From Alphaproteobacteria bacterium (GTDB lineage Bacteria > Pseudomonadota > Alphaproteobacteria > Micavibrionales > UBA2020): a stretch of DNA of 64,000 bases. The position numbers were made by a program, and so were the translations under genes. The DNA lies in the NCBI GenBank assembly GCA_025934695.1, contig JAICWS010000002.1, positions 558,001 through 622,000 on the forward strand, read 5' to 3'. Positions 5,271-40,471 of the stretch are shown here, piece by piece (position 1 is the first letter of the stretch; each line of letters opens with the position of its first letter). The notes below the pieces were generated by a model. That model saw nothing but the letters and a program-made list of their open reading frames with translations, did not search any database and was not told the DNA's origin.

Positions 5271-8200
5271 TCAGCGGCGGGGTTTCATCGCGGGCGCCTT
5301 CACTTTCCCGGCAGGATAGGTGAAGTTGTCATTCGCCTTCAGGCGCGCGGCGACGATGCTGAAGTCCGCCTGCGGGTCGGGCATGGGGCGCGACTCCGTC
5401 TGCTCTCCTACGACCTGCTTCAGCAGGTATTCGCGGCTCAGGTCGGTCAGCGACGGGGTGACCTTCACGAATTCCGGCGGCAGCGCCTGCAGCGCGTCCT
5501 TGAGCCCCTGCGTCCAGACGGCCTCAGCCCGCGTCGCGGCTTTCGCGTTCTTCAGCCCGTCCTTTTCGACGATGTCGAACAGCTCATTCGCCTGGTCCTG
5601 GTCGAGGCTGATGGGGAAGCTGCGGTCGTCTGCCACGACGAGGGTCTTTTCCTGCGCTGGGCTGTAAAACAGCATGGTCGCACGTGACATCTGCACGACG
5701 TCGGCAGGCACTTCCTGCCCCTTGGCGGTATAATTCGCGCCCACGACGGTGAAACCGTCTTCCGCCGCCAGCTTCTTCAGGATGTTGTAGCCGGTCTTCT
5801 CGTCGCAGGGGATCTGCAGGATGTCGTTGCCGATCAGCAGGCACAGCAGTTCGCGGTCGGGATTGTAATAGGCGTCATCGATGCAGCTTTTGTGGGTGAT
5901 GACATTCTCCGCCGCGATCAGGCCGCTTTTCGACGACAGGCCCTGGAAGATGTTTTTCGCGAGGTCTTCCTCGGCGCTGATGAAGCCGGGCTTGCGCGTG
6001 GGCCCATATTTGCGGCAGGTGAAACCCGTTTCGCGCGCGTCGGTATACATCATGTAGCCAAGCTGGGCGAAGTTGAAGTGCAGGTTCTGCAGCGACTTGC
6101 CGCCGGGCGCCTGGATCATGTCGGAGCTGGCCACCGCCTGTTCCAGTTTCGCGAAGTCGGACTTCGAGGCCAGTTCCACGGGATAGAAATACTGGCCCGG
6201 CACCGCGCTCTCGAGCAGGTCTTCGAAATCGTTGCTCTCGCAGCGGAATTCCAGCGAATTCTTGTCGGCGTTCAGTTGCAGGATCGAGGCGTTCTTCGGG
6301 TTGACGAAGGTGCCGGACAGGTCGAGCAGCGGCTCTTTCGCCGCCACCTGCACTGTGCCGTCGAGGATCTGCACTGCGCCGTAGCGGTCGACCAGCAGGT
6401 GCGTGCCGTCGGACAGCGGCTGCAGCAGCGCGACGCTGCGCTGGTTGATGCTTAAGAGGGCGCCATTCTTCCCCGTGACATGCACGAAATCCTCGCGCGC
6501 ATGCAGGGCGTCGCGCGCGGCAGCATCGACGTTCAACTCGCCCGTATGGCGGTTCCAGGTGATCTTGGTGCCATTCGCGTCGGTCGCGATGCGGTCGATG
6601 TTCTCGGGCCGGTAAATGCCGTCGTACTCGGACTGGAAGCCGCCCTTGCGCTGCAGCAGCGACAGGACTTCGCCCGCTTCCGCAGGCGACAGGCTTTCCA
6701 TGAAGGTTTGGCCCGTGCCGTTCACGGTATAGCGCATGGCCTTCGTTTCGGCATTGTACCAGATATTGGCGATGCGCCCGAGGTTCGTCATGATCTTGCC
6801 GTCGCTCAAGCGCACGTTGTCGCCGGCGTAATTGGCTTCCATGGCGCTCAGGGTCTTCGCGGCGTCCGCATTGGCGCCCGGCGCGGTCGCGGCGGCGTAA
6901 AGGATGTTCGCGCGTGCGGCATCTGACGAAAACGGCTCGACCAGCGCCGCGATCCAGTTCAGCTTGCCGTCGGGCGGCAGCTTGCTTATCGCCACGCGTT
7001 CCAGCCAGCCGCCCTGTTTCGTGAGCTCCGCGCGCAGTTCGTCGAGGCCGCCGTTGGCGAAGCTCGAGGCGATCAGGCGGCGGGTCACGGGCAGGGAGAA
7101 GGCGCCCGGCTCGGCCAGCACCTGCTTGTCGAGGAAGTTGAGCACGTTCTGAGATGCGCCGCGCACCGCGTTGGAATGGACCTTCAGCTCATCCAAAATC
7201 CCGGCGGCGAGGGCCTTGTCCATGAGGTTTGCGAGGTCGGATTTGGTGCTTGCGGTCGCGAGGATCTGGTCGACCAGCGGCGCGGTGGCTTGGGAATGAC
7301 TGAGCTCCCAAAGTGCCATGAACTGGTGGCCGCTCTGCGCTTGCGCCATGCGATCCAGGATCCCGCTCAAAGCCGGGACGTCCTGCCGCGCGACGGCCTC
7401 CATAAAACCCGTGAGATTTTCCTCCGACTTGCCGTTGTTATCGGACAGCCCGTCGAGAAGCTCGCCGATTGCGGCCTTCATCGCCGCGACGCCGCCCTTG
7501 AAGCGCAGCACCAGGCGGTCGAAGGGCGTCATCGCCGTGCCCTTGAGGCCGATCAGCTCGGCCAGGTCTTCGTCTTTCTTGCCGGTGCGCAGGGCGTCGA
7601 GCGCGATCTTGAGCGCACGCGAGTTGAGCGGGTCGTTCGGGGCGGTGGTTTCCTGCATCACGCGCTCGAAAATCTCGCGTTTGGTCTTCAGGCCCGAGAC
7701 TTTAAAGTCGGGCTCGTATTTCAGCGCGGTTTCGAGCAGCAGCAGCTGGTTGGCGCGCGACGTCACGCGGTTGAGCGCGAGGTCGGCGAAGCTGACCGCG
7801 TCGAAGTCCTTCAGCAGGAATTCTTTCAACTGCTTGGCGTCGGTCGTTTCCGGCTTCGGGAAGAGGCTGGGCAGCAACGCCGCGAATTCGGGGATGCGCT
7901 GCTCGTCGATCAGGATGGCGGTCTTCGAATAGGCCAGCGCCTTTTCGCGCAGGGCCTGCGCCTTCACGTTGATGACGAGGTCGTAATCGTGGCGCGCGAG
8001 ATCGATGACATATTGCGGGTTCTGGTAGGTCTCCATCAGCTTGTCGAGATTGGGCGTCGGCTTGTTGGCTTCGGGCGCCAGCGTTTCGCCTACCCAGTTC
8101 ATGAAGCTGTCGACGTAATAGTGGCGGTCGCTCTGCAGCGCGATCAGCTCTCCGCGCACAAGCCGCCAGTGGCGGCGCAATTCATCTTCGCGGCGGCGGA

Positions 8201-8753
8201 TTTCCGCCTCGATCTCAGCCGGGTCGGGCTCGGTGGATTTTTCGTCTTTCCTGAACCAGGAGCCGACCTGCCACCATTTCTTTTTTTCCGTCTCCTTTTC
8301 AGGCTCCGGCTGCGGCGGCGGGGGCGGCGCCGCGACAACGGGCTTGGGCGCGTCGGCATCGGGCAGCGTGATATCGGGCAGGTCTTCGAGGATTTTGGGC
8401 GGCACGCCGACCTGTGCCTTGCGGATCGCCTGCGACAGGGCGCTGTTCGCGCCGAAGCTCGCGTCCGACAGCTTGCCGAAATCGTCGATACTGAGGACGA
8501 AACCGGCGGCATCGCCGAAGGACGACAAAACTTTCAGCGCTTCCGGCTCGTCCTTCTTGTATTTGACGGCGCGCATGAGTTGGTGGTGGCCGACGATAAG
8601 CTGGGCTTGGTTCTTCTGGAGCCAGAGGTTGATGGCATCCGTGTTGCGCTCGAGCGTGTTCAAATAGTCGCTGAGCTGGTCGCGCATCTGGGACAGGGTG
8701 GTGACATCCTCGGGCAGTTTGAACGGCTTGGGCGACGGGGCGGTATCAGCCAT
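5271..8753 (-). CDS. Large unrecognised protein, 1160 residues
   Basis: I do not recognise this protein. It has no signal peptide or membrane segment. Residues 1-130 are helical. Residues about 135-175 form a Pro/Lys/Glu linker (VVAAPPPPPQPEPEKETEKK) with a Trp-rich patch. Residues 175-640 are mostly helical, with repeat-like segments. The last 450 residues look like mixed strand/helix modules that recur about four times, for example IWYNAETKAMRYTVNGTG, AYYNPDRELLCLLIGND and LFYSPAQEKTLVVADD. Each is followed by a Ser/Asp-rich turn and a helix ending near Gly-Phe or Gly-Leu. It is a single-gene unit with its own leader (8754-8980) shared with divergent mscL. Confidence 0.75.
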   Translation of the reverse strand: MADTAPSPKPFKLPEDVTTLSQMRDQLSDYLNTLERNTDAINLWLQKNQAQLIVGHHQLMRAVKYKKDEPEALKVLSSFGDAAGFVLSIDDFGKLSDASFGANSALSQAIRKAQVGVPPKILEDLPDITLPDADAPKPVVAAPPPPPQPEPEKETEKKKWWQVGSWFRKDEKSTEPDPAEIEAEIRRREDELRRHWRLVRGELIALQSDRHYYVDSFMNWVGETLAPEANKPTPNLDKLMETYQNPQYVIDLARHDYDLVINVKAQALREKALAYSKTAILIDEQRIPEFAALLPSLFPKPETTDAKQLKEFLLKDFDAVSFADLALNRVTSRANQLLLLETALKYEPDFKVSGLKTKREIFERVMQETTAPNDPLNSRALKIALDALRTGKKDEDLAELIGLKGTAMTPFDRLVLRFKGGVAAMKAAIGELLDGLSDNNGKSEENLTGFMEAVARQDVPALSGILDRMAQAQSGHQFMALWELSHSQATAPLVDQILATASTKSDLANLMDKALAAGILDELKVHSNAVRGASQNVLNFLDKQVLAEPGAFSLPVTRRLIASSFANGGLDELRAELTKQGGWLERVAISKLPPDGKLNWIAALVEPFSSDAARANILYAAATAPGANADAAKTLSAMEANYAGDNVRLSDGKIMTNLGRIANIWYNAETKAMRYTVNGTGQTFMESLSPAEAGEVLSLLQRKGGFQSEYDGIYRPENIDRIATDANGTKITWNRHTGELNVDAAARDALHAREDFVHVTGKNGALLSINQRSVALLQPLSDGTHLLVDRYGAVQILDGTVQVAAKEPLLDLSGTFVNPKNASILQLNADKNSLEFRCESNDFEDLLESAVPGQYFYPVELASKSDFAKLEQAVASSDMIQAPGGKSLQNLHFNFAQLGYMMYTDARETGFTCRKYGPTRKPGFISAEEDLAKNIFQGLSSKSGLIAAENVITHKSCIDDAYYNPDRELLCLLIGNDILQIPCDEKTGYNILKKLAAEDGFTVVGANYTAKGQEVPADVVQMSRATMLFYSPAQEKTLVVADDRSFPISLDQDQANELFDIVEKDGLKNAKAATRAEAVWTQGLKDALQALPPEFVKVTPSLTDLSREYLLKQVVGEQTESRPMPDPQADFSIVAARLKANDNFTYPAGKVKAPAMKPRR

Positions 8754-22990: not shown

Positions 22991-24133
22991 TTATTGGGCC
23001 GTTATCTTCCGCGGCGGATCCGACGGCGTCGCGCCGATCATGGCGGGGACGTTCTGATAGACGCTGACGACGGCCTTCTGGAAGCGCTCGTTCCAGTTAT
23101 TGCCGTCGATAACGGCGAAGGGAATTTTCCGCCGCGTCAGCTCGGCCTGCCACCAGTCGAACATGGCGATACGGTCTTTCATGTCGGGCATCAGGCGCAA
23201 GGGATCGGCTTCGTAATGACCTTCGACGCCGCGTGGGTCGAGCAGCAGGTACAGGTCGTATTTGCGCTGCGCGGCCAAACGCTCGATCCAGTGCGCGCAC
23301 TCGCCGAAGAAATGGCGCGACCAGTAGCAGGTCGTCAGGAGCTCGGTATCGCAGAACAGGATGCGGTTCGCCTGCCGCGCCAGCGCGTCTTCCGACGCCA
23401 CCTGCCCGCGCGCGATGGTCGAGAAGTCCAGCGGATCGAGTGACTTGATGTCGAAATCGGGAATATTCGCTGCGTAATCCGTCAGCATCGCACGCGCATA
23501 TTCCGCCACCTGCACCGTGCCGAAATGGGCTGCGAGATTGCGCGCCAGCATGCTCTTGCCGCTCGACTCCGGCCCCACGACGGCCACGCGCTTGAGGAAG
23601 TAAGGCCGCACGACCGGGTGCAGATGCTCCCAGTGCAGCAAGGGATTGTCGCGCATTGCGGTGCCCGAGATCTGGACGAGGTCGCGCTTGACGTTTACGG
23701 GGACGAAGCGGATGTCCATGATCCGCGCGACTTTATAACCGTAAGCTTCGGAGGCGAAGAGCGCGTCGAATTTTTCGCCCGGACAGTGTTTGTGAATACT
23801 GTCCCGCCATGTTTCGAAAAACGGCAGATCTTCGGGGCCTTGCGGTTCTTGAGGTATGTCAATGTAATGATGTACGACATTGCAATCCGGGAATAGCTCT
23901 TTGACCCATTTATAACGCACCTCGCCCGGAATAGGTTCCGAGGGGAGCGAGCAGACGAGGATTGTCAGCTTCCGGCAAGCTGCGCGTGCGAAATTGAGGA
24001 AATAGATATGACCGTTCGTCGGCGGCATGAATTTGCCGAAGGCGAGGCCGTGCCCGACGAATTCGGAATCGATTCCTTCGGTAATATCGCGCCGGATGGC
24101 GAGCGGACTGGTTGCGGCGATATCGTCTTTCAT
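22991..24133 (-). CDS. nadR: NadR: NMN adenylyltransferase / ribosylnicotinamide kinase
   Basis: A 380-residue two-domain enzyme. The adenylyltransferase domain has FGKFMPPTNGH (32-42) and ISGTAMR (155-161). The kinase domain has P-loop GPESSGKS (187-194), EYAR (211-214) and FCDTELLTTCYW. It phosphorylates nicotinamide riboside to NMN and adenylates NMN to NAD. The enterobacterial N-terminal helix-turn-helix is absent, so it is not a repressor. It is the last gene of the six-gene biosynthetic operon and overlaps the NRPS-like gene by four bases (ATGA). That coupling implies a role in the pathway rather than general salvage. Confidence 0.9.
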   Translation of the reverse strand: MKDDIAATSPLAIRRDITEGIDSEFVGHGLAFGKFMPPTNGHIYFLNFARAACRKLTILVCSLPSEPIPGEVRYKWVKELFPDCNVVHHYIDIPQEPQGPEDLPFFETWRDSIHKHCPGEKFDALFASEAYGYKVARIMDIRFVPVNVKRDLVQISGTAMRDNPLLHWEHLHPVVRPYFLKRVAVVGPESSGKSMLARNLAAHFGTVQVAEYARAMLTDYAANIPDFDIKSLDPLDFSTIARGQVASEDALARQANRILFCDTELLTTCYWSRHFFGECAHWIERLAAQRKYDLYLLLDPRGVEGHYEADPLRLMPDMKDRIAMFDWWQAELTRRKIPFAVIDGNNWNERFQKAVVSVYQNVPAMIGATPSDPPRKITAQ

Positions 24134-27100
24134 GCGGCTTTCTCCCGTACTTTCCCGAGCAGCCGTTCAACGGCGGCGCGGGCAGCATTGAATTTGGCAT
24201 CCCACGATCCCGACAGCATGACATAAGACCGGTCGCGCGTCTCAAGCGCCGCACGGCAGCTGTTCAAGAAATTCATTCTGTCTTCCGGCAGGTAGCGGTG
24301 CACATCCGCGACCCAGGGCGCATCCACGTCCATCAGCAGGTAAAGGTCGTAATGCTGCAGTTCCGCCGCGTCGCGCACCCATTGCGGGCATTCCCCGAAC
24401 AGCCGGTCGCTCCAGATCGTGGTCGTCAGCAGGTCGGTGTCGCAGATCAGCAGCCCGTTCGTGGCGCTTTCCGCTTCCTGTTCGGCTGCCGCCTGTCCCT
24501 TGGCGATCAGCGGAATATCGGTGAGAGCAATCGCGCCATTGCGGGCGGCGATATGCGCCTGCGCATATTCTTGCACATGCGGCGCGCCGAAGCTTTCCGC
24601 CAGTTTCTTCGTCAGGGTCGATTTGCCGGTCGATTCGGGACCAAAGAGGCAGATTTTGACGATTTTTTGCTCGTTACGAAAAAACCACCGGATATAGGTG
24701 TCGAGCAGCTTGTCGCTCGCGGCCGGGCAGGAAATGCCGGCGGGCGCCAGGACCGCATCGGCCCGCGTGGTGTCGAAGGTTACATCCGTCGCCTGGAACA
24801 GGTCGAGGGTGCGCACCTGTTCGAAACGCTTGTCGTCACTGACGGCGCGGCACAGCGACAGGGCGGCGGCGGATTCTTCTGCCGAGAGCGGCTTGTTTTT
24901 AATAAGGTCCAGCCATCTGTCCACGGGCAGGCTGCGCAGAACCTTGCCATACCGTGCCAGGGCCGCGCGAATGTCCTTCAACAACGCGCCATCGCGGCCT
25001 GCGATGTGATAGGCGCCGGGCTTTCCTGCCAGCGACAATTTCACCATCGCTTTTGCTGCGTAGCAGATTGGCGTGATATCGACTTTCAGGCGTTCTTCAA
25101 TGCCTTCCGGCAGCGCACCCAGCCGCGCGATGCCGGCGGAGAAGAGTGCGAGGAAATCCGTTGGCGACGAAGCGCCGCTCGCGGCATCGCCCGTCAGCAG
25201 GCCGAAACGGTACTGGTAAATATCGCAGGCCTCGGCAGGTGTCTGCGCCAGCATATGTTCGGCGGCGAATTTGGTCTGCGCGTAACCGCCGTAAACCGTC
25301 GTCACGCCATCCAGCCTATCGGTCTCGAGCAGCCGGCCCGTGTTTTGGTTGGTTGCGACGAAGACCGAGAGGGTCGAGGCATTGTGCAGCGGCTTGCGCC
25401 GGCCTTCGCAGGCCAGCTTCAGCAGGGTCAGCGCGCCGCCCACATTCGCCGCGCGCATGTCGGGATAGGACAGGATCATGTTGACGCAGGCCGCGCAGTG
25501 GTAAATCGCACTCATATTGGCCGCGAGGGTTTGCCACGTCTTGTCGTCCAGCCCCGCGCGCGGCTGCGACAGGTCGCCGGGGACGGGGATAACGCGGGCC
25601 CAGTCGGCGGCGCGCAGCGGAACGTTGAATTTTTCGACAGCTTCCCGAATGCGGCGGAGAACGCCATCGGCATCGACAGCGCGGATCAGGCAATAAATAT
25701 CGCTCGTCGTTTCCTTCAGGAGTTCGTACAGCACGCGAGAGCCGAGAAAACCCGTCGCACCGGTCAGCAGGATGGCATCCGCCTTGGCGGATGCTTCGGG
25801 ACGTTTCGCGGCGGCGGCCAGAATTGTTTTGGTCTCGGCGTCGAAACCGACATCCTTGCGCAGGCGATCGGCCGGCAGGGCGCTATGGGCGACAGCCGCG
25901 TGTTTGGCCTGTTCTCGGATGGTCGCATGGCCCGAAAACAGGGCAGGGGAAACGCTAAGGCCCTGGCGTTCTGCTTCCAAAGTGAGGCGGATGATGCCGA
26001 GGGAATCGCCCCCCACAGCATAAAAAGCATCGGTCGCGCCGAAATCTTCGTGCTTCAGCACGGCGCTCCAGATGGCGAAAAGCTTTTCCTCCAGTTCCCC
26101 GCGCGGCGCCACGCGTTTCGCGGCGCTGCCGAGCGGCATTTTGGCCAAACGGCCGTAATCCGTCTTGCCGGAGGCTGTCAACGGCAGGCGCGCAATCACC
26201 TCGAAATGCTGCGGGATCATCCAGGCGGGCAGGAAGCGGCTTAAGAATCCGCGCAGGTCGTTCGCCGCCGCAGCATCGCTCAAGGCAACGAAGGCGGCCA
26301 GCCGGCCATCGCGCTTCAGCACCGCGGCTTTCATGACCTGTGGATGTGCGCGCAGGCGGGCCTCGACCTCGTCCGGTTCGACCAGCTGCCCGCGCAGCTT
26401 GAACTGGCGGTCGATGCGGCCCAGGAATTCGAGTGAACCGTCCGGGTGCTGGTGCACGCGGTCGCCGGTGCGGTACAGGCGCTTGCCGTTGTGGATGATG
26501 AATTTTTCTGCCGTCAGTTCCGGCTGGTTCAGGTATCCGCGCGCCAGCACATCCCCGCCAATATAGAGCTCCTCGCCGAAGACGACATATTTCACGCCGG
26601 GCAGCGGGTCGCCCAGCAGCGGCAGCTCCCAATCTGCGCCGCAGACGTTCAGGCTGGTGCAGACGGTCGCCTCGGTCGGACCGTAGACGTTAACGACGCG
26701 AAAGCGCTTCGCCCAGCCGCGCACGGCATCCATCGCCGCCGCTTCCCCGCCGATGATGACGGTTTCCAGGCTGTTCGGCATGTCTTCGGGTGCCAGTGCG
26801 CGGAGCAGCGAGGGCGGCATGTCGATATGGGTGATCTTCTCGTCATGCAGCACACGTTTCAACGCCGCGCCGTCCTGCAGCTCCTCCTGCGGGCGGATGA
26901 CCAAAGCCGCGCCCGCCGACAAGGCGACGGTGATATCCGAAATCGAGGCGTCGAAGTTGACCGAGAGGTAAAACAGCGACCTGCTTGTGGACTTCATGCG
27001 AAACGCCTTGCGCTGCGCCGCGCAGAGGTTCGCGATGCCGCGATGCTCGACCATCACGCCCTTCGGGTTGCCGGTCGAGCCGGAGGTATAGATGATATAG

Positions 27101-27483
27101 GCAAGCGTCTCTGATTTTACCTGAACCGGATTCGCTGCGCTGGGCGTAATGCCCTTTGTATCCTCAGCCGTAATGACATGCCGGATGCCCGCTTCCGCGA
27201 TGATATAGTCGCGCCGTTCCTGCGGCAGCGAGGGCGGCAGCGGCACGAAGGCAGCGCCGGCATGCCACACGCCCAAGAGCGCGATCACATATTCGGCAGA
27301 TTTTTCCATGCACAGCGCAACGGGGGTTTCCGGGCCTGCGCCTTGCGCAGTCAACCATTCGCCGATGCCCGCCGCATGGTCGCGCAATTCGGCATAGCTC
27401 ACAATTCTGCCGTTATCGGCAAGGGCGGCATGTTCGGGATAGGCCGCCGCGACTTTCAGGAATTCGCTCCAGAAGCTTTTCAT
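24130..27483 (-). CDS. NRPS-like adenylation-carrier-reductase fused to a NadR-type kinase domain
   Basis: A 1117-residue protein with four domains. Adenylation (1-450) has YIIYTSGSTGNPKG, NFDASISD (whose Asp fits an alpha-amino-acid substrate), NVYGPTEA, YRTGD and LTASGKTD. The carrier domain has Ser494 in GGDSLG as phosphopantetheine site. A thioester-reductase domain (570-930) has GATGFLG (575-581) and the Tyr734/Lys738 pair in GYAQTK. The C-terminal part (940-1117) matches the kinase half of NadR, with P-loop GPESTGKS (948-955) and CDTDLLTTTIW; EYAR is changed to EYAQ. The first three domains should load an amino acid and release an aldehyde or alcohol. The kinase could phosphorylate a riboside or the product. 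Confidence 0.88.
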   Translation of the reverse strand: MKSFWSEFLKVAAAYPEHAALADNGRIVSYAELRDHAAGIGEWLTAQGAGPETPVALCMEKSAEYVIALLGVWHAGAAFVPLPPSLPQERRDYIIAEAGIRHVITAEDTKGITPSAANPVQVKSETLAYIIYTSGSTGNPKGVMVEHRGIANLCAAQRKAFRMKSTSRSLFYLSVNFDASISDITVALSAGAALVIRPQEELQDGAALKRVLHDEKITHIDMPPSLLRALAPEDMPNSLETVIIGGEAAAMDAVRGWAKRFRVVNVYGPTEATVCTSLNVCGADWELPLLGDPLPGVKYVVFGEELYIGGDVLARGYLNQPELTAEKFIIHNGKRLYRTGDRVHQHPDGSLEFLGRIDRQFKLRGQLVEPDEVEARLRAHPQVMKAAVLKRDGRLAAFVALSDAAAANDLRGFLSRFLPAWMIPQHFEVIARLPLTASGKTDYGRLAKMPLGSAAKRVAPRGELEEKLFAIWSAVLKHEDFGATDAFYAVGGDSLGIIRLTLEAERQGLSVSPALFSGHATIREQAKHAAVAHSALPADRLRKDVGFDAETKTILAAAAKRPEASAKADAILLTGATGFLGSRVLYELLKETTSDIYCLIRAVDADGVLRRIREAVEKFNVPLRAADWARVIPVPGDLSQPRAGLDDKTWQTLAANMSAIYHCAACVNMILSYPDMRAANVGGALTLLKLACEGRRKPLHNASTLSVFVATNQNTGRLLETDRLDGVTTVYGGYAQTKFAAEHMLAQTPAEACDIYQYRFGLLTGDAASGASSPTDFLALFSAGIARLGALPEGIEERLKVDITPICYAAKAMVKLSLAGKPGAYHIAGRDGALLKDIRAALARYGKVLRSLPVDRWLDLIKNKPLSAEESAAALSLCRAVSDDKRFEQVRTLDLFQATDVTFDTTRADAVLAPAGISCPAASDKLLDTYIRWFFRNEQKIVKICLFGPESTGKSTLTKKLAESFGAPHVQEYAQAHIAARNGAIALTDIPLIAKGQAAAEQEAESATNGLLICDTDLLTTTIWSDRLFGECPQWVRDAAELQHYDLYLLMDVDAPWVADVHRYLPEDRMNFLNSCRAALETRDRSYVMLSGSWDAKFNAARAAVERLLGKVREKAA

Positions 27484-28298
27484 GCGGCGTTCCTTTTCGG
27501 AAACAAATAGTCGCGAAACGCCTCGGCTTTCGAGGCGTTGTCGGCATTCGGCGCGCCGATTCCCGCGGCATGATCGTCCAGGTGCACGGCCCGGAAATCG
27601 AGGCTGAAACGCGTGACCGGCGAGACATTCTTGACTGTCTGGTGCAGCTGCGCCGCCGAAAAGGCGATGATCTCGCCCGCCCGCGCACCGAAGGCCTGTC
27701 CGCCGTTGACATCAATAGTGGGCGAAGGGAAGGTGACCGGCACTTCCGCCTTGTTGCCCTGCCAGCCGCGTTTTTCCGACCAGTCGGCATAGGAAAAGAC
27801 GGCGGAGTTATTCGGCACCGCCGCGTCGAACAGCTGCGGGTAGAACATGAAGCTGTTATCTTCCGTCACATCCTGCAGCGGGATCCAGAAGTTGATCTGG
27901 CATTGCGGGTTGCCGTACCAAGTGTCGCGATGTGCAGCATAGGCGATCTCGGCGCCCTTGTTCAGGTGGTTGCCCGGCAGCACGCAGCGCAGGCGCAACG
28001 GGTCATAGGCGAATTTCGCGGGCGCGCCCGCCATCTTCGTTATGTCGGAAAGAGCATTCAAAAAGCGCGCTTCGGTCGTTAATATCGTGCGCAGATCGGT
28101 CAGTTTCCCGCGCGTGTCGGCAAAACCGTAGCGTTCATGCAAGCGTTCCAGCGGCGCGCCGAAGTCCCGCTCCAGCATGAGGCGCACATCGGTCACCAGC
28201 TTCCGCGTAGCTAGAGTCGCGGCGAGGCGGAAGATGTTTCCATCATAGATCGCGCGGCGGAATTGGCTGGGGCTGGAAAAGCTGGGCGCGGCGAACAT
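27480..28298 (-). CDS. Fe(II)/2-oxoglutarate dioxygenase (PhyH-like)
   Basis: A 272-residue protein. The iron-binding triad appears as His123 and Asp125 in AAHRDTWYG and His219 in AAQLHQTVKN; Arg230 in VTRFSLDFR fits 2-oxoglutarate binding. The jelly-roll strands QINFWIPLQDV and EIIAFSAAQ support a phytanoyl-CoA-dioxygenase-like fold. In biosynthetic clusters such enzymes hydroxylate amino acids or tailor products; the substrate here is unknown. It overlaps the NRPS-like gene (ATGA at 27480-27483) and begins one base after the methyltransferase stop. Confidence 0.85.
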   Translation of the reverse strand: MFAAPSFSSPSQFRRAIYDGNIFRLAATLATRKLVTDVRLMLERDFGAPLERLHERYGFADTRGKLTDLRTILTTEARFLNALSDITKMAGAPAKFAYDPLRLRCVLPGNHLNKGAEIAYAAHRDTWYGNPQCQINFWIPLQDVTEDNSFMFYPQLFDAAVPNNSAVFSYADWSEKRGWQGNKAEVPVTFPSPTIDVNGGQAFGARAGEIIAFSAAQLHQTVKNVSPVTRFSLDFRAVHLDDHAAGIGAPNADNASKAEAFRDYLFPKRNAA

Positions 28299-28299
28299 G

Positions 28300-29079
28300 T
28301 TACGCCTCCGGTTTCTGGGCGACGGTGATGCAGCGCGGGCTCTGGGGGCCGAGCACTTCCCCCCGTGCGCTGCCGAAAAAGCGGATGTTGGTGAAGCCGA
28401 CGCCTTCGAACAGCGTCTTCAGTTGCATTGAGGTATAGAGCTTCGCGCCGCCGCCGCGTTTTTCGACGCGCCGTCCGTCGCGACCCGTGTAAACCCAGTC
28501 TTTCACCAGCATGTCGCCATCCAGGCGCGAGTCGCAGGTGATAGTGCAGTCCGGCTTTTCCTGCCGGTAGCCGGTTTTGCCTTCCGGGCCGAGTTGGCGC
28601 AGGCGGTCGGCGGCATTCATGTAATCGAGCGCGAACCAGCCGCCGGGCTTCAGCGATGCAAAAACGCATTCCAGCATCTTCGCGTTCTGCGCGTCGTCCG
28701 GCGTATAGCCGAAACTCGTCCACCAGTTGATTGCGGCGTCGCAAGGGACGGGCGTCACATAGGTATAGGCATCGCCGGAGGCGAAGTGGCAGGCCGCGCT
28801 GCCGAGCGCCGCTTCGCGCCGCGCCTGCGCGATATAGGCGGGGATCAAGTCGACGCCATGGGTGCGAAAGCCGCGCTTGGCAAGCGCAAGGCTCAAAGTC
28901 CCCACGCCGCAGCACTGGTCAAAAACCATGTCGCCGGTGCTCACGCGCAAGACGCGGATTAGGAATCCGGTAATATCCGCGACTTCCCCCTCGCTGCGCG
29001 TCATCAGGCAGTGTTCGGCGAACAGATCGTCGAAGAAGTCCTCGCACCAGTTTGTTTGCGGGGTGATCACGTCTTTCAT
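28300..29079 (-). CDS. SAM-dependent methyltransferase
   Basis: A 259-residue class I methyltransferase. Motif I is VFDQCCGVGTLSLALAKRG (52-70), motif II-like HGVDLIPAYIAQA, and the post-motif region has SGDAYTYV and LKPGGWFALDYMN. This is the pattern of small-molecule methyltransferases rather than of RNA or DNA enzymes. The acceptor group (O or N) is not evident. It overlaps the amidotransferase gene by four bases and is followed one base later by the dioxygenase, so all are made together. Confidence 0.85.
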   Translation of the reverse strand: MKDVITPQTNWCEDFFDDLFAEHCLMTRSEGEVADITGFLIRVLRVSTGDMVFDQCCGVGTLSLALAKRGFRTHGVDLIPAYIAQARREAALGSAACHFASGDAYTYVTPVPCDAAINWWTSFGYTPDDAQNAKMLECVFASLKPGGWFALDYMNAADRLRQLGPEGKTGYRQEKPDCTITCDSRLDGDMLVKDWVYTGRDGRRVEKRGGGAKLYTSMQLKTLFEGVGFTNIRFFGSARGEVLGPQSPRCITVAQKPEA

Positions 29080-30992
29080 GCGGATAACCTGAACCTTTCG
29101 TGCAGCGTATGGGCGGTCAACATGGTCATAAGGATCGGTTCGGCGGCGGTGCGGTCCTGCGTCGACATGGCCGGCAGCTGCGCGACGAGCGCGGACGCCT
29201 TGGCCGCGTCGAAGAAGGGCATCTCCGCGAAGCTTTTGCTCGCCAGCGTGTCCTTGATCAGCACCATCAGCCCGCTATTGGCGAAGCGGCTGACGGGCGG
29301 GGCCATGAAGGGGTGTTTCTGGCGTTTGTAGATCGTCTCGGTCAGGACGGGCTTTGCGGCTTCGCGCAGGATGAATTTTTCGACCGTGCCGCGGATCTTC
29401 ATGGACATCGGCAGCCGCCGCGCGAAGGCGAAGAGGTGATGATCGAGGAAAGGGAGGCGGCCTTCCACCGACTGCGCCATTTCCATGCCGTCGCCCAGCG
29501 TGCGCAGGATGTAATTCGCCAAGGCCAGCTTGCTCCACAGCCAGGAAGACTGATTAACGGGATGGCGGCCCGCTAGCTGCTGCATGGGCGCGTTGCGCAT
29601 CAGGTCAGCCAGCGCGTCGCGGCCGGAAAAGCGCGTTTTGAAAGCGCTGGACAGGACAGTTGCCATACGGTGCCCCAGCGACGCCTTTGCTTCAATGAAA
29701 GCGGGGACATAGCCCATATGCGCGCGCACCGCATCAATGGATAACGTTTCACCATGCGCCAGCTGCACGCCCGCCGAAGCGCCGTTCGTCGCATAGAGCC
29801 GCGCCGTCAGGTTTTCGGCATCATTCACCGCGCTCATGCGGAACAGGTCCTGCCGCAGGTGCGGGTAGCCCGCCAGCACCTCGTCCGAGCCTTCGCCGGT
29901 CAGCGCGACCTTGAAACCGGCGGCGCGGATGGCGCGGTTCAGCAGGTACTTCCCCGCCAGGTGGCCGTTGATCGCAAGCCCCTCGCCGTAATAGACAGCA
30001 TCCGGCAGATGTTTGACGAGATCGTCCTGCGTCACATGCACGGCATGGAGCTTCGCGCCGGCTTTCGCTGCCATTTCCTGAGCGATCGGCAGTTCGTCAT
30101 AACCTTCATGGTCGAAGGTGACGGTAAAGGCATCGACGCTACGGTTGAGCCGTTTCGCGGCCAAGCCCAGCACCGACGCGGAATCGAGCCCGCCGCTCAA
30201 GTGGAAGCAAACCGGCACGTCGGCCAACAGGCGCAGGCGAATGGCCTCGTCCAATTCGGCGGCGAAGGCGGCGATGACCTCGTTTTCATTCGTCACACGC
30301 GTGATCTTGTCTTCCGTCGGGAAGTCGAGATCCCAGTATTTAAAGGTCTCGACGCTGTTGCCGCGTGCGACCAGGGCATGGCCGGGCTTGAGCTGAAGGA
30401 TGTTCCTGAACAGCGTGCGGTCCTGCGGCGTGTACTGCAACGACGCCGCGTGGAAGAAGGCATATTCATCCCAGGCCGCGGGCGCACCCATGGCGAAGAG
30501 CGCCTTGGCCTCCGAAGCCAGCAGCACCGCGCCTTTGTCCACGGTATAGCACAGCGGCTTGATGCCGAAGCGGTCGCGCACGGCGAAGAGCAACTGCTTG
30601 TCCTCATCCCACAGGATAAAGGCGAACTCGCCGCGCAGTTGTTCCAGGCAGTTGAAGCCGTATTCTTCGTAAAGATGCAGCACGATCTCGCTGTCCGACC
30701 GGGTGCGGAAGACATGGCCGCGCTTTTCCAGGTCGGCGCGGATGCGGGCATGGTCGTAAAACTCGCCATTCACGACCACATGCTTGCGTCCGTCTTCCGA
30801 AGTGATGGGCTGGGCTCCCGTCGACAGGTCGACGATGGACAGGCGGCGGTGGCCAAGGCCCGCGTTGCCCTGTTCCGAAATCCAGAGGCCTTCGCCGTCG
30901 GGCCCGCGGTGGATCAGGGCGTCCGTGCCGCGGCGGATGTTGTCCGCGGTCACGCGTCTGTCCCAGGAATAGATGCCGGTGATGCCGCACAT
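29076..30992 (-). CDS. Asparagine-synthetase-type glutamine amidotransferase
   Basis: A 638-residue AsnB-family protein. The glutaminase domain begins with the catalytic Cys2 (MCGITGIYSW) and has HRGPDGEG, GHRRLSIVDL and VVVNGEFYD. The synthetase domain has the ATP-binding motif LSGGLDS (265-271) and GEGSDEVLAGYP. It transfers glutamine-derived ammonia to an activated carboxylate. In this operon it more likely makes an amide or lactam on the pathway product than free asparagine, but that is inference. It begins six bases after the dehydrogenase stop. Confidence 0.88.
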   Translation of the reverse strand: MCGITGIYSWDRRVTADNIRRGTDALIHRGPDGEGLWISEQGNAGLGHRRLSIVDLSTGAQPITSEDGRKHVVVNGEFYDHARIRADLEKRGHVFRTRSDSEIVLHLYEEYGFNCLEQLRGEFAFILWDEDKQLLFAVRDRFGIKPLCYTVDKGAVLLASEAKALFAMGAPAAWDEYAFFHAASLQYTPQDRTLFRNILQLKPGHALVARGNSVETFKYWDLDFPTEDKITRVTNENEVIAAFAAELDEAIRLRLLADVPVCFHLSGGLDSASVLGLAAKRLNRSVDAFTVTFDHEGYDELPIAQEMAAKAGAKLHAVHVTQDDLVKHLPDAVYYGEGLAINGHLAGKYLLNRAIRAAGFKVALTGEGSDEVLAGYPHLRQDLFRMSAVNDAENLTARLYATNGASAGVQLAHGETLSIDAVRAHMGYVPAFIEAKASLGHRMATVLSSAFKTRFSGRDALADLMRNAPMQQLAGRHPVNQSSWLWSKLALANYILRTLGDGMEMAQSVEGRLPFLDHHLFAFARRLPMSMKIRGTVEKFILREAAKPVLTETIYKRQKHPFMAPPVSRFANSGLMVLIKDTLASKSFAEMPFFDAAKASALVAQLPAMSTQDRTAAEPILMTMLTAHTLHERFRLSA

Positions 30993-30998
30993 GGGCTT

Positions 30999-31922
30999 TC
31001 AAGCTCCCGGGTTGAAGAAGACCTTTTGCGTCTCCAGCGTCTTCGAGCGTTCGAAGACGGCAGCGAATTCCTCCAGCGGGTGTTCAGGTCCCAAGAGGTC
31101 GTCGACCTGGATCAGCCCTTCAGCCATCAGGCGGATCGCCTCGCCGAAATCGCCGTAGTTGACGGCCGTCAGCGTGATTTCCTTCTTCACCGCCAGCGCG
31201 AGGCTGATGCCGACCGGTTCATGCTTGCGGCTTTTCAGCACGATCTTGCCGCCGGGGACGACGGCCAGCATCAGCTCATGCATGGCCTTGTCGGTCGCCA
31301 GCGTTTCGATGGCGAAGTCGTAAGCGCCTTCGCGCAGGGGAATGCCGGCCGCCGGGTCGAAGACAGTCACGCCGTCGAGACTGTAGGCTTTCAGGATGCG
31401 GTTGATCAGGTGGCTGAAGCGGTTGTTGCCGTAGATGACGCCGCGCTGACCCGCCTTCAGGCCCGCCTTCATGACCGACAGGGCGGCCGCCACCGGCTCG
31501 CTATAGGCGGCGAGGCGAAAGGACATGGCGTCGGGGATTTTATGCACCGCACTCACCGGCACCGCGACCAACTCGCCAAAAGCGCCGTCATGATCGATGC
31601 CCAGCATCGTCGTTGCCTGGCATTTGTCCTGCGCGCCGGCGGAGCAGAGCGCGCAGCGTCCGCAGGGCAGCACCGGCATGGCGGTCACGCGGTCGCCGCG
31701 GGCAAAGCCGGGCGCGTTCTTGCCGGCGGCCTCGACGATGCCCGAAAACTCATGGCCCAGCACCACGTCACTCTTCGCGGGGATGCGGCCTTCGGCCACG
31801 AACACATCGGTGCGGCACAGGCCGGCCAGCTTCACGCGCACCAGCACATCGGTTTCCCGCACGCGCGGGGCATCGACTTCCCGCACCGCGACGCCCTGAT
31901 TGCTTTTGATGATGGCACGCAT
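30999..31922 (-). CDS. Zinc-dependent alcohol dehydrogenase (MDR family)
   Basis: A 307-residue medium-chain dehydrogenase and the first gene of the operon. I start at 31922 (MRAIIKSNQG), preceded by GAGAGGG; an ATG 21 bases upstream has no ribosome site. Catalytic zinc ligands are Cys36 (GLCRTD) and His57/Glu58 (GHEF). The structural zinc cysteines are 87, 90, 93 and 101 (LPCGRCALC). The Rossmann part lies near AGQRGVIYGNNRFSHLI, where the usual GxGxxG is altered to YGNNRF, so cofactor binding may be unusual. It could reduce the aldehyde released by the NRPS-like reductase or oxidise a sugar alcohol. Confidence 0.85.
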   Translation of the reverse strand: MRAIIKSNQGVAVREVDAPRVRETDVLVRVKLAGLCRTDVFVAEGRIPAKSDVVLGHEFSGIVEAAGKNAPGFARGDRVTAMPVLPCGRCALCSAGAQDKCQATTMLGIDHDGAFGELVAVPVSAVHKIPDAMSFRLAAYSEPVAAALSVMKAGLKAGQRGVIYGNNRFSHLINRILKAYSLDGVTVFDPAAGIPLREGAYDFAIETLATDKAMHELMLAVVPGGKIVLKSRKHEPVGISLALAVKKEITLTAVNYGDFGEAIRLMAEGLIQVDDLLGPEHPLEEFAAVFERSKTLETQKVFFNPGA

Positions 31923-31953
31923 GACAACCCTCTCAATCTCCATTATGTAAATT

Positions 31954-36840: not shown

Positions 36841-38457
36841 ATGAGCATCCTGTCAGCGCTGTGCAGCCATATCCTCAACACCGACTCCTACAAGGCTTCC
36901 CATTACCTGCAATATCCCGAAGGCACCGAATATGTTGTCAGCTACATCGAGGCGCGCGGCAGCAAGTTCGCGCAGCAGCTCGGCAAGGATTATGATTACG
37001 CCGAATTCTTCGGCCTCCAGGCCTTCCTGAAAGACTACTTGAGCAAGCCCATCGACCAGGACGACATCGACTTGGCCGAGGTGCTCTACCGCATGCACGG
37101 CGTCCCCTATAACAAAGAAGGCTGGCAGTACATCCTCGACCACCACGGTGGCAAGCTGCCCATCGAAGTCCGCGCGATTCCCGAAGGTACCGTGCTGCCC
37201 AACAGCAATGCGATGGTCGAAATCGTCAATACCGACCCGAAGGCCTATTGGCTGACCAGCTATGTCGAGACCGAACTGCTGCGCGCCGTCTGGTATCCCA
37301 CCACCGTCGCCACCAAGTCGCGCATGATCAAGGAAGTGATGCGCGGTTTCATGGACCGCACCTCCGACAATTCTGCCGGCCTCGATTTCATGCTCCATGA
37401 CTTCGGCGCGCGCGGCAACAGCTCGATGGAATCCTCGGGCATCGGCGGCATGGCGCATATCGTCAACTTCAAGGGCACCGACACGGTCATGGGCATCGTC
37501 GGGTCGCTCGGCTATTACAGCCACGATTTCGAAAAATTCCACGAGCAGATGCCGGACCGCCCCAAGCGCGCGATGATCAATACGCTCCTGAAGATGGAGC
37601 GCGAAAAGGTTCCGCTGCCTGCTTTCTCCGTCATCGCGTCCGAGCATTCGACCATGACGATCAAGGGCGAGGCCGGCGAAATCGAGCAGATCAAGCTGCT
37701 GATCGACACCGCGAAGACGGGCCGCATCGTCTCCATCGTGTCCGACTCTTACGATTACTTCCGCAACATCGAAAAGGTCTACGGCGAGCAGTTCAAGCAA
37801 GATATCCTCGACGCCGGCAAGGCGGGCGGCCGCATCGTCATCCGCCCGGACTCCGGGGACCCGGTCGAAGTCATTACCAAGACGCTGGAAGTCCTGTGCG
37901 AGAAATTCAAGGATGAATGCACGACCGTCAAGAAGGGCGACAAGGAATTCAAGCTGCTGCCGCCATGCCTGCGCGTCTTGCAGGGCGATGGCATCGACCT
38001 CGACTCCCTGCACAAGATCCTGACCGCCATGGAGCAAAAAGGCTTCTCGGCCGAAAACCTCGTCTTCGGCATGGGCGGCGGTCTCGAGCAGAAGGTCGAC
38101 CGCGACGGGCTCTATTTCGCGCAGAAAGCCTGCGCCGCCCGCATCAACGGCAAATGGGTCGACATCCAGAAGAACCCGAAGACTGCAAGCTCGAAGAAAT
38201 CGAAGGCGGGTGTGCTTTCGACAATCTGGAACGGCGTGGCCTTCGCCACCAAGCGCACGAAAGAAATCCTGGCCGGCGAACTCGACGTGCTGAAGCCGGT
38301 CTTCCGCGACGGCGAGATCTTGGGTACTGAGGGCTGGAATGACGTCTGCGACCGCGCCGAATATTTTACCAAGCGCCTGAGGGAAAAAGCGACGGACTTC
38401 GTCGCAAACCCGTGGGATGCCGTTTCGAAGAAATCCCAGCCCGCGCCGGGGATGTAA
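36841..38457 (+). CDS. nadV: Nicotinamide phosphoribosyltransferase (NAMPT/NadV)
   Basis: A 538-residue NAMPT-type enzyme that joins nicotinamide to PRPP to give NMN. Family motifs: TDSYKASHYLQYP near the start, HDFGARG (186-192), ASEHSTM with catalytic His269, IRPDSGDP (334-341) and FGMGGGL (409-415). It is longer than the usual 470-490 residues, with extra sequence near 355-372 and at the C-terminus. The next gene starts one base after its stop and could both supply PRPP and use NMN. Some phage relatives transfer nicotinamide to ADP-ribose pyrophosphate instead; sequence reading cannot exclude that. Confidence 0.9.
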   Translation: MSILSALCSHILNTDSYKASHYLQYPEGTEYVVSYIEARGSKFAQQLGKDYDYAEFFGLQAFLKDYLSKPIDQDDIDLAEVLYRMHGVPYNKEGWQYILDHHGGKLPIEVRAIPEGTVLPNSNAMVEIVNTDPKAYWLTSYVETELLRAVWYPTTVATKSRMIKEVMRGFMDRTSDNSAGLDFMLHDFGARGNSSMESSGIGGMAHIVNFKGTDTVMGIVGSLGYYSHDFEKFHEQMPDRPKRAMINTLLKMEREKVPLPAFSVIASEHSTMTIKGEAGEIEQIKLLIDTAKTGRIVSIVSDSYDYFRNIEKVYGEQFKQDILDAGKAGGRIVIRPDSGDPVEVITKTLEVLCEKFKDECTTVKKGDKEFKLLPPCLRVLQGDGIDLDSLHKILTAMEQKGFSAENLVFGMGGGLEQKVDRDGLYFAQKACAARINGKWVDIQKNPKTASSKKSKAGVLSTIWNGVAFATKRTKEILAGELDVLKPVFRDGEILGTEGWNDVCDRAEYFTKRLREKATDFVANPWDAVSKKSQPAPGM

Positions 38458-38458
38458 C

Positions 38459-40471
38459 ATGGCGAAGAAGGTCTTCCAGGGCGACGCCGACGAAATCGAT
38501 CAGGAAATCACGGCCGAGGGCTATGAATATGCGATTCCGCCCGGCCGCCGGGCGCCGATGCACCGCATGCATATCCAGTGCGTCTTCGACATCCTGCGCG
38601 CGGGGCTGAAGCCCGTGCTCGCGATCGGCTCCGTCAACGGGCCGGAAAGCAAGCTGTGGAACCCGGTCAAGAACCCGCTTACCGTCGAACAGCAGAAGGA
38701 GCAGTTCCACCGCGCGCTGCCGGGCGTGGACTATAACTCGGCGATGATCATCGAGCTGGAAGACACGCCCGACGACAAGAGCTGGATCGAGAATTTCCAC
38801 AAGAAGCTGAAAGACCTCGGCATCGACGGCAAGTCGGTGGTCTATTTCCGCGCGAAATCCGCCGACGCGGCAACGGCGGCTGACGCGGGTATCAAGCCGC
38901 TCGCGGCTTATACCCAGTCCTTCGTCGACGAAGGCATGGCGGTCTGGCAGTCTTATAACACCGATCCCGCGGACGACAATATCTCGGCCAGCGCGATCCG
39001 CGCCTTCGACCTGAACAACCTCACAGTCGAACAAAAGCGTATCATTGGCGCGCCGGGCTACATCATCCAGCTTGCCCGCGAGGCGCGCAATAGCAACCCG
39101 GACAAGGCGCTACTCGAGGAAAACAATATTCCGCTCACTGTCCTCGACCTCTCGTTCGACCGGATGAGGAAGGAAGCGGGCATTTCGACGGCTGCGGTCA
39201 TCGAGCTCGCGAAAGTCGATGGGCCGGTCGATGTCGCGTCCTTATCGCAAGCAGCGACCGATCTTATCCGCGAGCGCGCGGGCGCGACAATATCGAAGGC
39301 GCGAAAGCCGCTCGTGTTCATGAGCAACAGCGTCTCCGACGAGACGGCGGAAGCCGTCCGGGGCGCGGGCCTGTTTTCGCTCGGGAGCGCTTCGATCGGC
39401 AAGTTCCAGAGCGACGAGCCCTTCGTCGAGCTGTTCTACATGAAACGGGACGGCGACAAGAACGACCAGAAGCTCAAAGAGGAGCTGAAAAAATACTGCG
39501 AAGCGAACCGCGAAAAGGTCAAGGGCAACACGGTTTACATCCTGGGCTCCATGGGCGAGCCGGTGGCCGAGCATATGGTCGACATCCTGCTCATGACGCA
39601 TACCGCCAAGCAATATGGGGCAAAGGAAGTCGTCGTCGTCTCGCCGTTCCTGGCGCTCTCCCGCGAGGACCGCGAATTCGACGAAGGGCTCTGGTCCATC
39701 GGAACGGATTTCATGGCGGGCCAGCTCAAGGCGGCCAAGGCCGACAAGGTCGTCACCTTCACCATGCATTCGCAGGCGGGCGTCGCGGCGTATAAAAAGG
39801 AATTTGGCGACAACTTCATCGCGCTGGACGCGACCGACGTGTTCACGCGTTACCTCGAAGGCATCTTCCGCGGCAACGCGCCCAAATTGATCACGGGCGC
39901 TCCGGACGGGGCCGACAAGCTCAAAGACGAAGGCCAGCGCCGCGCGCGCGAGCTCTCGACGAGCCTCACCGGCGCGTTTAATGAAAAGTCGATGTTCTTC
40001 ATCGCGAAGCGCCACACCGGTACCAACAAGACCGAAATCGATCTCGAAAAATCCAAAATCGAGGTCGAAGGCCAGGACTGCGTCATTATCGACGATCTCA
40101 TCGACGGTGGCGGCACAGCAGTCAATGCCGCAACCGAGCTGAAGAAACGCGGCGCGAAGTCGGTGACGGTGCTCTGCACGCATGGCATCCTGACGCCCAA
40201 GAACGGCACGGCGCTGGAAAAGCTGATGACGACGAAAATCGGCGATGCTTACACAATCGACCGTTTCGCGGTGACCGATTCCATCCCGGAAGCGAAAGCC
40301 AAGATCAAGACCTTTCGCAAGCAGTATCCCGAGCTGGCGGACCGGGTCGACTGGGTCTCGCTGGGTCCCGCCATCGTGGGCGAGATCAAGCGCCAGATGG
40401 CGGCGGAAGCGGCGCCCGCGAATTCCAACGCGCCGGGCAAGCCCAAGGTTGAAGTTCTGAAAGTCGGCTGA
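38459..40471 (+). CDS. Fusion of NMN-adenylyltransferase-like and PRPP-synthetase-like domains
   Basis: A 670-residue two-domain protein. Residues 1-215 are a nucleotidyltransferase: GRRAPMHRMH (29-38) corresponds to the GRxxPxHxxH ATP site, and ISASAIR (175-181) to the ISxTxIR motif. Residues about 285-645 are PRPP-synthetase-like: a STxxPxxD-like loop (LGSMGEPVAEHMVDILLM), FLALSREDREF, and the phosphoribosyl motif CVIIDDLIDGGGTAV (541-555). Together with NadV this would take ribose-5-phosphate and nicotinamide to NAD: PRPP made by the C-domain, NMN by NadV, NAD by the N-domain. The start is at 38459, in TAACATG. Confidence 0.82.
   Translation: MAKKVFQGDADEIDQEITAEGYEYAIPPGRRAPMHRMHIQCVFDILRAGLKPVLAIGSVNGPESKLWNPVKNPLTVEQQKEQFHRALPGVDYNSAMIIELEDTPDDKSWIENFHKKLKDLGIDGKSVVYFRAKSADAATAADAGIKPLAAYTQSFVDEGMAVWQSYNTDPADDNISASAIRAFDLNNLTVEQKRIIGAPGYIIQLAREARNSNPDKALLEENNIPLTVLDLSFDRMRKEAGISTAAVIELAKVDGPVDVASLSQAATDLIRERAGATISKARKPLVFMSNSVSDETAEAVRGAGLFSLGSASIGKFQSDEPFVELFYMKRDGDKNDQKLKEELKKYCEANREKVKGNTVYILGSMGEPVAEHMVDILLMTHTAKQYGAKEVVVVSPFLALSREDREFDEGLWSIGTDFMAGQLKAAKADKVVTFTMHSQAGVAAYKKEFGDNFIALDATDVFTRYLEGIFRGNAPKLITGAPDGADKLKDEGQRRARELSTSLTGAFNEKSMFFIAKRHTGTNKTEIDLEKSKIEVEGQDCVIIDDLIDGGGTAVNAATELKKRGAKSVTVLCTHGILTPKNGTALEKLMTTKIGDAYTIDRFAVTDSIPEAKAKIKTFRKQYPELADRVDWVSLGPAIVGEIKRQMAAEAAPANSNAPGKPKVEVLKVG

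Follow-up and report, generated by a model that had tools for sequence, protein, structure and literature searches.

Among described proteins, the nearest likeness to the kinase considered here is found in NadR, whose biochemistry is treated in PMC7221760. The NadR proteins of Lactococcus lactis (6gye) and Haemophilus influenzae (1lw7) share its fold, Walker A motif and catalytic Asp motif, and the gene next to it also shows their order of NMNAT and kinase domains. Unlike known NadR, this kinase is fused to an adenylation-carrier-reductase (A-T-R) protein, has the arginine of the EYaR motif replaced, and lies in a biosynthetic operon whose host genomes are mostly without PnuC. The order of A, carrier and reductase domains is that of NRPS-like A-T-R reductases (the last module of MxcG, which was the best NCBIfam match, and carboxylic acid reductases), but the fusion protein has its own A-domain code, a C-terminal kinase and no Pfam match to a condensation domain.

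Pairs of kinases and nucleotidyltransferases activate alcohols in pathways of the CDP-ethanolamine type. The logic that we propose below, phosphorylation followed by nucleotide transfer, would be the same, whereas the operon has enzymes of the NadR type, whose product would be an adenylate, and a transferase partner was not seen among the conserved neighbours. NAD itself serves as a biosynthetic building block (PMC11610977). The altemicidin pathway, in which SbzP uses β-NAD, is similar in the possible use of NAD in biosynthesis; the operon, which has NadR-type enzymes, differs from it in showing no match to a PLP enzyme.

Full-text literature was searched for NadR or nicotinamide riboside (NR) kinases together with NRPS, thioester reductases or gene clusters; the matches listed were few, dealt with NAD synthetase or with unrelated topics, and included no paper on such a system, in agreement with the original prediction that this fusion had no described counterpart. 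The kinds of enzyme are known, and their combination is new within the literature searched: the operon joins NRPS-like reductive release to NadR-type nucleotide chemistry.

The fusion protein and the adjacent NadR

The window, i.e., the whole stretch of 64,000 nucleotides that was analysed, contains the operon listed in Table 1. The predicted coordinates of the fusion gene are exact; its strand, which the original prediction did not give, is minus. Pfam and NCBIfam reproduced the predicted chain of A domain, carrier, thioester reductase and kinase. Pfam placed AMP-binding at residues 10-318 (230 bits), AMP-binding_C at 372-440, PP-binding at 467-528 (38.3 bits), NAD_binding_4 at 573-813 and AAA_28 at 943-1096 (116.5 bits, cut-off 27). 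NCBIfam recognised AA-adenyl-dom (TIGR01733; 348 bits, cut-off 317) and Thioester-redct (TIGR01746; 236.5 bits, cut-off 213). By its A domain, carrier serine and reductase with YxxxK, the protein is an NRPS-like A-T-R enzyme.

Table 1 Features of the operon in the window
Feature	Position	Strand	Details and evidence
ADH, zinc-type alcohol dehydrogenase-like, first gene of the operon	30999..31943	-	314 aa; ADH_N 94 bits
AsnB-like glutamine-dependent amidotransferase	29076..30992	-	638 aa, N-terminal Cys2 present; TIGR01536 438.7 bits, cut-off 267
SAM-dependent methyltransferase	28300..29079	-	259 aa; Methyltransf_25 44.8 bits
PhyH-like 2-oxoglutarate/Fe oxygenase	27480..28298	-	272 aa; PhyH match right at the cut-off (22.0 bits); HxD and distal H can be read
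A-T-R-kinase fusion	24130..27483	-	1117 aa; ORF, Pfam and NCBIfam matches
Adenylation domain, aa 10-440	26164..27456	-	Pfam; nine-residue code DASDIGVVC
Carrier (PP-binding) domain, aa 467-528	25900..26085	-	GGDS; Pfam
Thioester reductase domain, aa 571-932	24688..25773	-	YxxxK present; TIGR01746 236.5 bits, alignment
NadR-type (RNK) kinase domain, aa 942-1097	24193..24660	-	Pfam, NCBIfam, model, structure match
NadR: NMNAT domain aa 29-175, RNK domain aa 178-363	22991..24133	-	TIGR01526, both domain HMMs; Walker A and EYAR intact

The C-terminal domain has the fold, Walker A (GPESTGKS, residues 948-955) and DTD motif of RNK kinases, with Gln in place of the EYaR arginine. Only the kinase half of the NadR model TIGR01526 (positions 162-323 of 325) was matched, below the cut-off. 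An AlphaFold2 model of the domain (pLDDT 90.9, built from 15 aligned sequences) found NadR as its best solved-structure match (8x7f, TMq 0.84); Z was 21.3-22.9 for the NadR entries among the matches listed, versus 17.3 for the best thymidylate kinase. The AAA_28 match, the matched half of TIGR01526 and the structural comparison all support the NadR-type identity first read from the sequence. An unrelated AAA ATPase, a possibility that had been raised against it, is ruled out.

The kinase is indeed present twice at the locus, as had been predicted: the gene that follows encodes a NadR with both domains, covering positions 3-325 of the 325 in TIGR01526, with both NMNAT and kinase halves. Its score of 216.3 bits lies below the cut-off of 341.15, which only two of the 12 matching control genomes exceed. 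The fused kinase and the kinase of this NadR are 38% identical.

A search for homologues of the same domain order recovered the uninterrupted fusion in six more genomes (G001, G006, G007, G009, G011 and G015), in frames of 1128-1217 aa. With the one in the window, seven genomes carry it, all of one alphaproteobacterial family, so that chance or misassembly, including the assembly artefact considered in the original prediction, is excluded. The kinase region was matched in 17 of 143 genomes (own genome included), i.e., seven fused kinases, eight separate genes and two weak matches. The two genomes with weak matches (G055 and G087) lack the operon genes, loci L042 and L043, taken from weak matches, showed none either, and the kinase region had no match in the same-genus genomes G002-G005. 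No plasmid record covered 80% of the T-R-K query, and the best rows were ordinary NRPS or thioester-reductase proteins.

A conserved six-gene operon

The genes are ordered as alcohol dehydrogenase, AsnB-like amidotransferase, methyltransferase, PhyH oxygenase, A-T-R(-kinase) and NadR. The four genes upstream of the fusion lie on the same strand, with 4-nt overlaps or gaps of at most 6 nt. Using the T-R alignment as a profile on genome contigs, we obtained 92 relatives, of which the 80 best were retained (L044-L123). Presence was counted in these 80 loci only; the contigs of L028-L041 recur as copies among L044-L074. Among the best 80 of the 92 relatives, AsnB was found in 59 loci, the methyltransferase in 49, the dehydrogenase in 48, PhyH in 27, a kinase in 49 and NMNAT in 46, with genes past a contig end scored as missing. 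The weakest T-R matches mostly consist of A and T-R domains only.

A kinase lies nearby in 46 of the 59 loci that combine A-T-R with AsnB. Of the 13 others, six belong to genomes with a kinase elsewhere and seven to genomes with none or a weak match (MAGs may be incomplete). About nine phyla contribute operon loci, subject to possibly wrong taxon labels of MAGs: Pseudomonadota (including Legionella MAGs), Cyanobacteriota with Obscuribacterales/Melainabacteria, Bacteroidota (Prevotellaceae), Planctomycetota, Verrucomicrobiota, Myxococcota, Actinomycetota, Bacillota and Uhrbacteria. One locus, L080, belongs to the complete genome of Limnoglobus roseus PX52. Gene order is mostly kept even in distant groups. 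PhyH had no match in the 15 Prevotella-type loci. In the flanks of the 59 loci and the window, no shared extra partner (transporter or exporter, glycosyltransferase, transferase) was found beyond lineage-specific groups.

The A-domain code follows the pattern DASD(I/V/T)G(V/C/I)(V/I)C in all 59 operon A domains counted (the window and 58 loci; L047, L082 and L094, with A matches too short or split, are omitted), with D, A, S, D, G and C invariant. Its positions were placed by hand mapping on GrsA, and the code partly resembles those for Lys, Gln/Glu and Tyr. Prediction of the A-domain specificity, proposed earlier as a check, thus yielded a near-invariant code across operons and no assigned amino acid. 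The operon A domains probably load one particular amino acid, and the near-invariant code together with the operon content across phyla points to one conserved metabolite.

Three A-T-R relatives from Leptospiraceae (L075, L083 and L098) read DASC(V/I)GVVC, with C at the fourth position in 3/3; AsnB and NadR are absent from the available DNA around these loci, which perhaps represent a sister pathway. The A-domain search also matched an 826-aa protein of the window with acyltransferase and AMP-binding domains (53724-56204, minus strand), about 22 kb from the operon.

Packaging and phylogeny of the kinase

In most loci the operon kinase is the second half of NadR. L055 and L074 have it as a separate gene beside A-T-R, with NadR present too, and the NadR of L074 has lost the EYaR and lid residues. 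In a Prevotella MAG (L081, 8486-12478, plus strand), A-T-R, NMNAT and kinase form one frame of 1330 aa, which, in this single MAG, could either be genuine, as a second kind of fusion, or result from a frameshift.

All seven fused kinases have kept Walker A. Four of the seven genomes with the fusion combine an intact fused kinase with a broken NadR kinase: Walker A is missing from the NadR kinase in each of the three members of one genus (L050, L051 and L136), and the NadR kinase of L029/L130 contains an in-frame stop, perhaps through a sequencing error. In those genomes the fused domain is therefore likely to be the working copy. The original prediction was right that the A-T-R-kinase fusion is real, but the domain at the end of this NRPS-like enzyme is no odd appendage: it is the NadR-type kinase that belongs to the operon itself, and the kinase step has likely been moved onto the reductase rather than added. 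The fusion hints at which two steps of the pathway are consecutive.

A tree of 93 kinase domains, from which the cut or decayed NadR kinase halves of L045, L050 and L051 and the truncated one of L211 were omitted, grouped the fused and separate kinases with NadR kinases of Prevotella, Micavibrio and Obscuribacterales (supports 58 to 83). The NadR kinase of the window grouped, with support 91, with that of L057 and with the NadR kinases of further loci that have two kinases. PnuC-linked NR kinases of Bacteroidales (support 98) are nested inside the operon kinases, as sister to the window NadR kinase and its kin (77). A separate clade of operon kinases had been seen in a smaller tree without these Bacteroidales kinases (L034, a duplicate of L052, and NMNAT pieces below 110 aa were omitted there), and was gone in the 93-domain tree.

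Acceptor residues

The EYaR arginine is present in 37/37 reference NR kinases (four from PDB, seven from phages and 26 from Bacteroidales). It occurs in none of the seven fused and neither of the two separate kinases, in 18 of the 42 single-NadR operon kinases (L084/L187 and L089/L188, the same or nearly the same sequences, are both counted among the 42) and in four of the five NadR kinases of two-kinase loci. K, H or Q stands in its place in the seven fusions, and Q in the window. The residue after the lid arginine is Tyr or Phe in 38/42 single-NadR and 7/7 fused kinases (together 45/49) and in one of the two separate ones; the same holds for none of the five NadR kinases of two-kinase loci and for one of 36 references. 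These residue counts have the same omissions as the 93-domain tree; the motif alignments omit 12 rows, L060 among them.

Loss of the arginine in 9/9 fused or stand-alone operon kinases favours a changed acceptor, while the nesting of PnuC-linked NR kinases among the operon kinases favours nicotinamide riboside. Operons with Arg-less kinases only and operons with Arg-type kinases only both exist, so the two kinase types may do the same job. The original prediction offered a phosphorylated amino alcohol, a nicotinamide- or riboside-linked product, or a need for NMN, and the sequence does not discriminate among these three.

Single-NadR operons carry FWxxW in the NMNAT loop, like two NadRs of phages whose neighbouring genes are annotated as PnuC-type transporters; the window NadR has FFETW at this position. 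Bacteroidales kinases share a neighbour family in 22 of 27 loci, and the one member tested is PnuC. Two further candidate marks were rejected. The lid sequence D-G-x-R, which PDB and phage sequences had suggested to be typical of true NR kinases, failed because the PnuC-linked Bacteroidales kinases mostly have D-P-L-R and the like. In H. influenzae NadR, Trp and Tyr sandwich the nicotinamide (we deduced the position numbers from the chain offset). As a diagnostic, this Trp was found in two of four PDB chains, none of the seven phage kinases and none of the 26 Bacteroidales kinases.

NAD metabolism of the hosts and nucleotidyl transfer

NadR matches above 100 bits were obtained in 13 of 55 relatives of the order (own genome included), all of them genomes with the operon; in operon genomes of other groups, the operon's NadR was the sole match above 100 bits in 15 of 15. 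Among 149 relatives of a Prevotella-type genome, at least three have a full NadR, each adjoining the A-T-R gene of an operon (G144, which is L088; L187; L188); at most 13 first-look candidates were scored per genome, and these counts are lower bounds. NadD exceeded the cut-off in the own genome and in 11 of the 12 hosts searched, the G001 copy having internal stops. PnuC did so in only two of the 27 hosts searched (0/12 and 2/15), and none was found in the own genome. With this distribution of NadD and PnuC, NR salvage is not the obvious role for the operon enzymes.

In Obscuribacterales, the NMNAT half of NadR is decayed in L053, and the L060 NMNAT scores alike (89 vs 86 bits). A double NadD protein adjoins the NadR or A-T-R gene in four loci (L053, L060, L061 and L066); that of L053 (15870-17237, minus strand) has an intact HxGH-type motif in its first copy and lacks the catalytic His in the second (GQFDPISQGD). 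The genome of L105 has a kinase about 700 nt from a double NadD. NadD paralogues are common, with four to nine NadD places in each of the eight Obscuribacterales-type genomes searched (halves of double proteins counted apart). Nucleotidyl transfer probably belongs to the pathway.

NrtR is a family of repressors of NAD metabolism. An NrtR-like Nudix regulator with a readable Nudix box is encoded just upstream of the dehydrogenase in eight of the 15 Prevotella-type loci (L082, L084, L085, L087, L088, L089, L092 and L096), several of the other seven having little upstream DNA. The one regulator tested scored 80.9 bits with NrtR_WHD; its best NCBIfam match, an ADP-ribose-responsive repressor, was below the cut-off.

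Proposed pathway and alternative explanations

We see slightly less than an even chance that the fusion protein holds the central position in a conserved pathway of six genes, whose kinase and NMNAT cap the pathway's own product as an adenylate conjugate. The A domain would load one amino acid onto the carrier, and the reductase, with NADPH, would release it as an aldehyde, or as an alcohol together with the dehydrogenase. Amidotransferase, methyltransferase and, where present, PhyH oxygenase would tailor the amino-acid-derived product. The NadR-type kinase may then phosphorylate a hydroxyl of the released aldehyde or alcohol product, or of an intermediate further along the pathway. AMP would then be added by the NMNAT domain of NadR to give an adenylate-capped (ADP-type, NAD-like) conjugate. 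Where kinase and reductase are fused, the released product would be handed straight on. Judged by the domain content, the predicted mechanism is well founded up to reductive release, and for what follows we favour the view that the pathway phosphorylates and adenylates a product of its own. A broader proposal, which we make only tentatively, is that one operon class in about nine phyla would convert an amino acid into a NAD-like dinucleotide, i.e., a reduced, amidated and methylated amino alcohol that is ADP-capped by NadR-type enzymes, with the kinase built into the reductase in one family.

Nicotinamide riboside stays a serious rival as acceptor, given that PnuC-linked NR kinases nest among the operon kinases. 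Kinase and NMNAT would then act on NR, and the NMN or NAD so formed would serve the pathway as a building block or as a local supply of cofactor. The kinase phylogeny and NMNAT motifs close to NR-salvage enzymes speak for this, as do the NrtR-like regulator beside eight Prevotella-type loci and the NadD-type protein beside four Obscuribacterales loci, and NAD as a building block is known chemistry (PMC11610977). Against a building-block role, however, stand the lack of a PLP-enzyme Pfam match among the six operon genes, the occurrence of NadD in 11/12 and of PnuC in 2/27 hosts searched, and the loss from 7/7 fused kinases of the arginine kept in 37/37 references; on balance we regard this explanation as rather unlikely.

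Capping of the pathway's own product also has to be weighed against two readings that make less of the enzymes' proximity or give them a defensive task. The fusion could be a neutral join of neighbouring genes, with reductase and kinase uncoupled. Read-through fusion would be easy, as in 36 of 46 loci, fused ones included, NMNAT or kinase starts downstream of the reductase at a distance of no more than 300 nt. Moreover, only one family showed the A-T-R-kinase fusion; the intact Walker A in 7/7 fusions and the retention of the fused kinase where the NadR kinase has decayed nevertheless make such a join improbable. It is highly improbable that NadR is a spare, product-resistant copy in a pathway making an inhibitor of NAD metabolism, with the fused kinase serving self-protection or pro-drug handling. 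Duplicated target enzymes are a known theme of resistance, and NadR accompanies the operon in the relatives searched, but the general enzyme of the hosts searched is NadD rather than NadR, and a resistance copy would be expected neither to fuse to a reductase nor to come with a NadD-type protein.

Other genes in the window

A 684-aa protein (38417-40471, plus strand) gave PRPP-synthetase-like and phosphoribosyltransferase matches, both in its C-terminal half, its N-terminal half being without a match. The 1160-aa ORF at 5271-8753 (minus strand) had zero Pfam matches at E 0.001. Two adjoining genes at 49761-51347 and 51363-53120 (plus strand) encode proteins with several EF-hand motifs.
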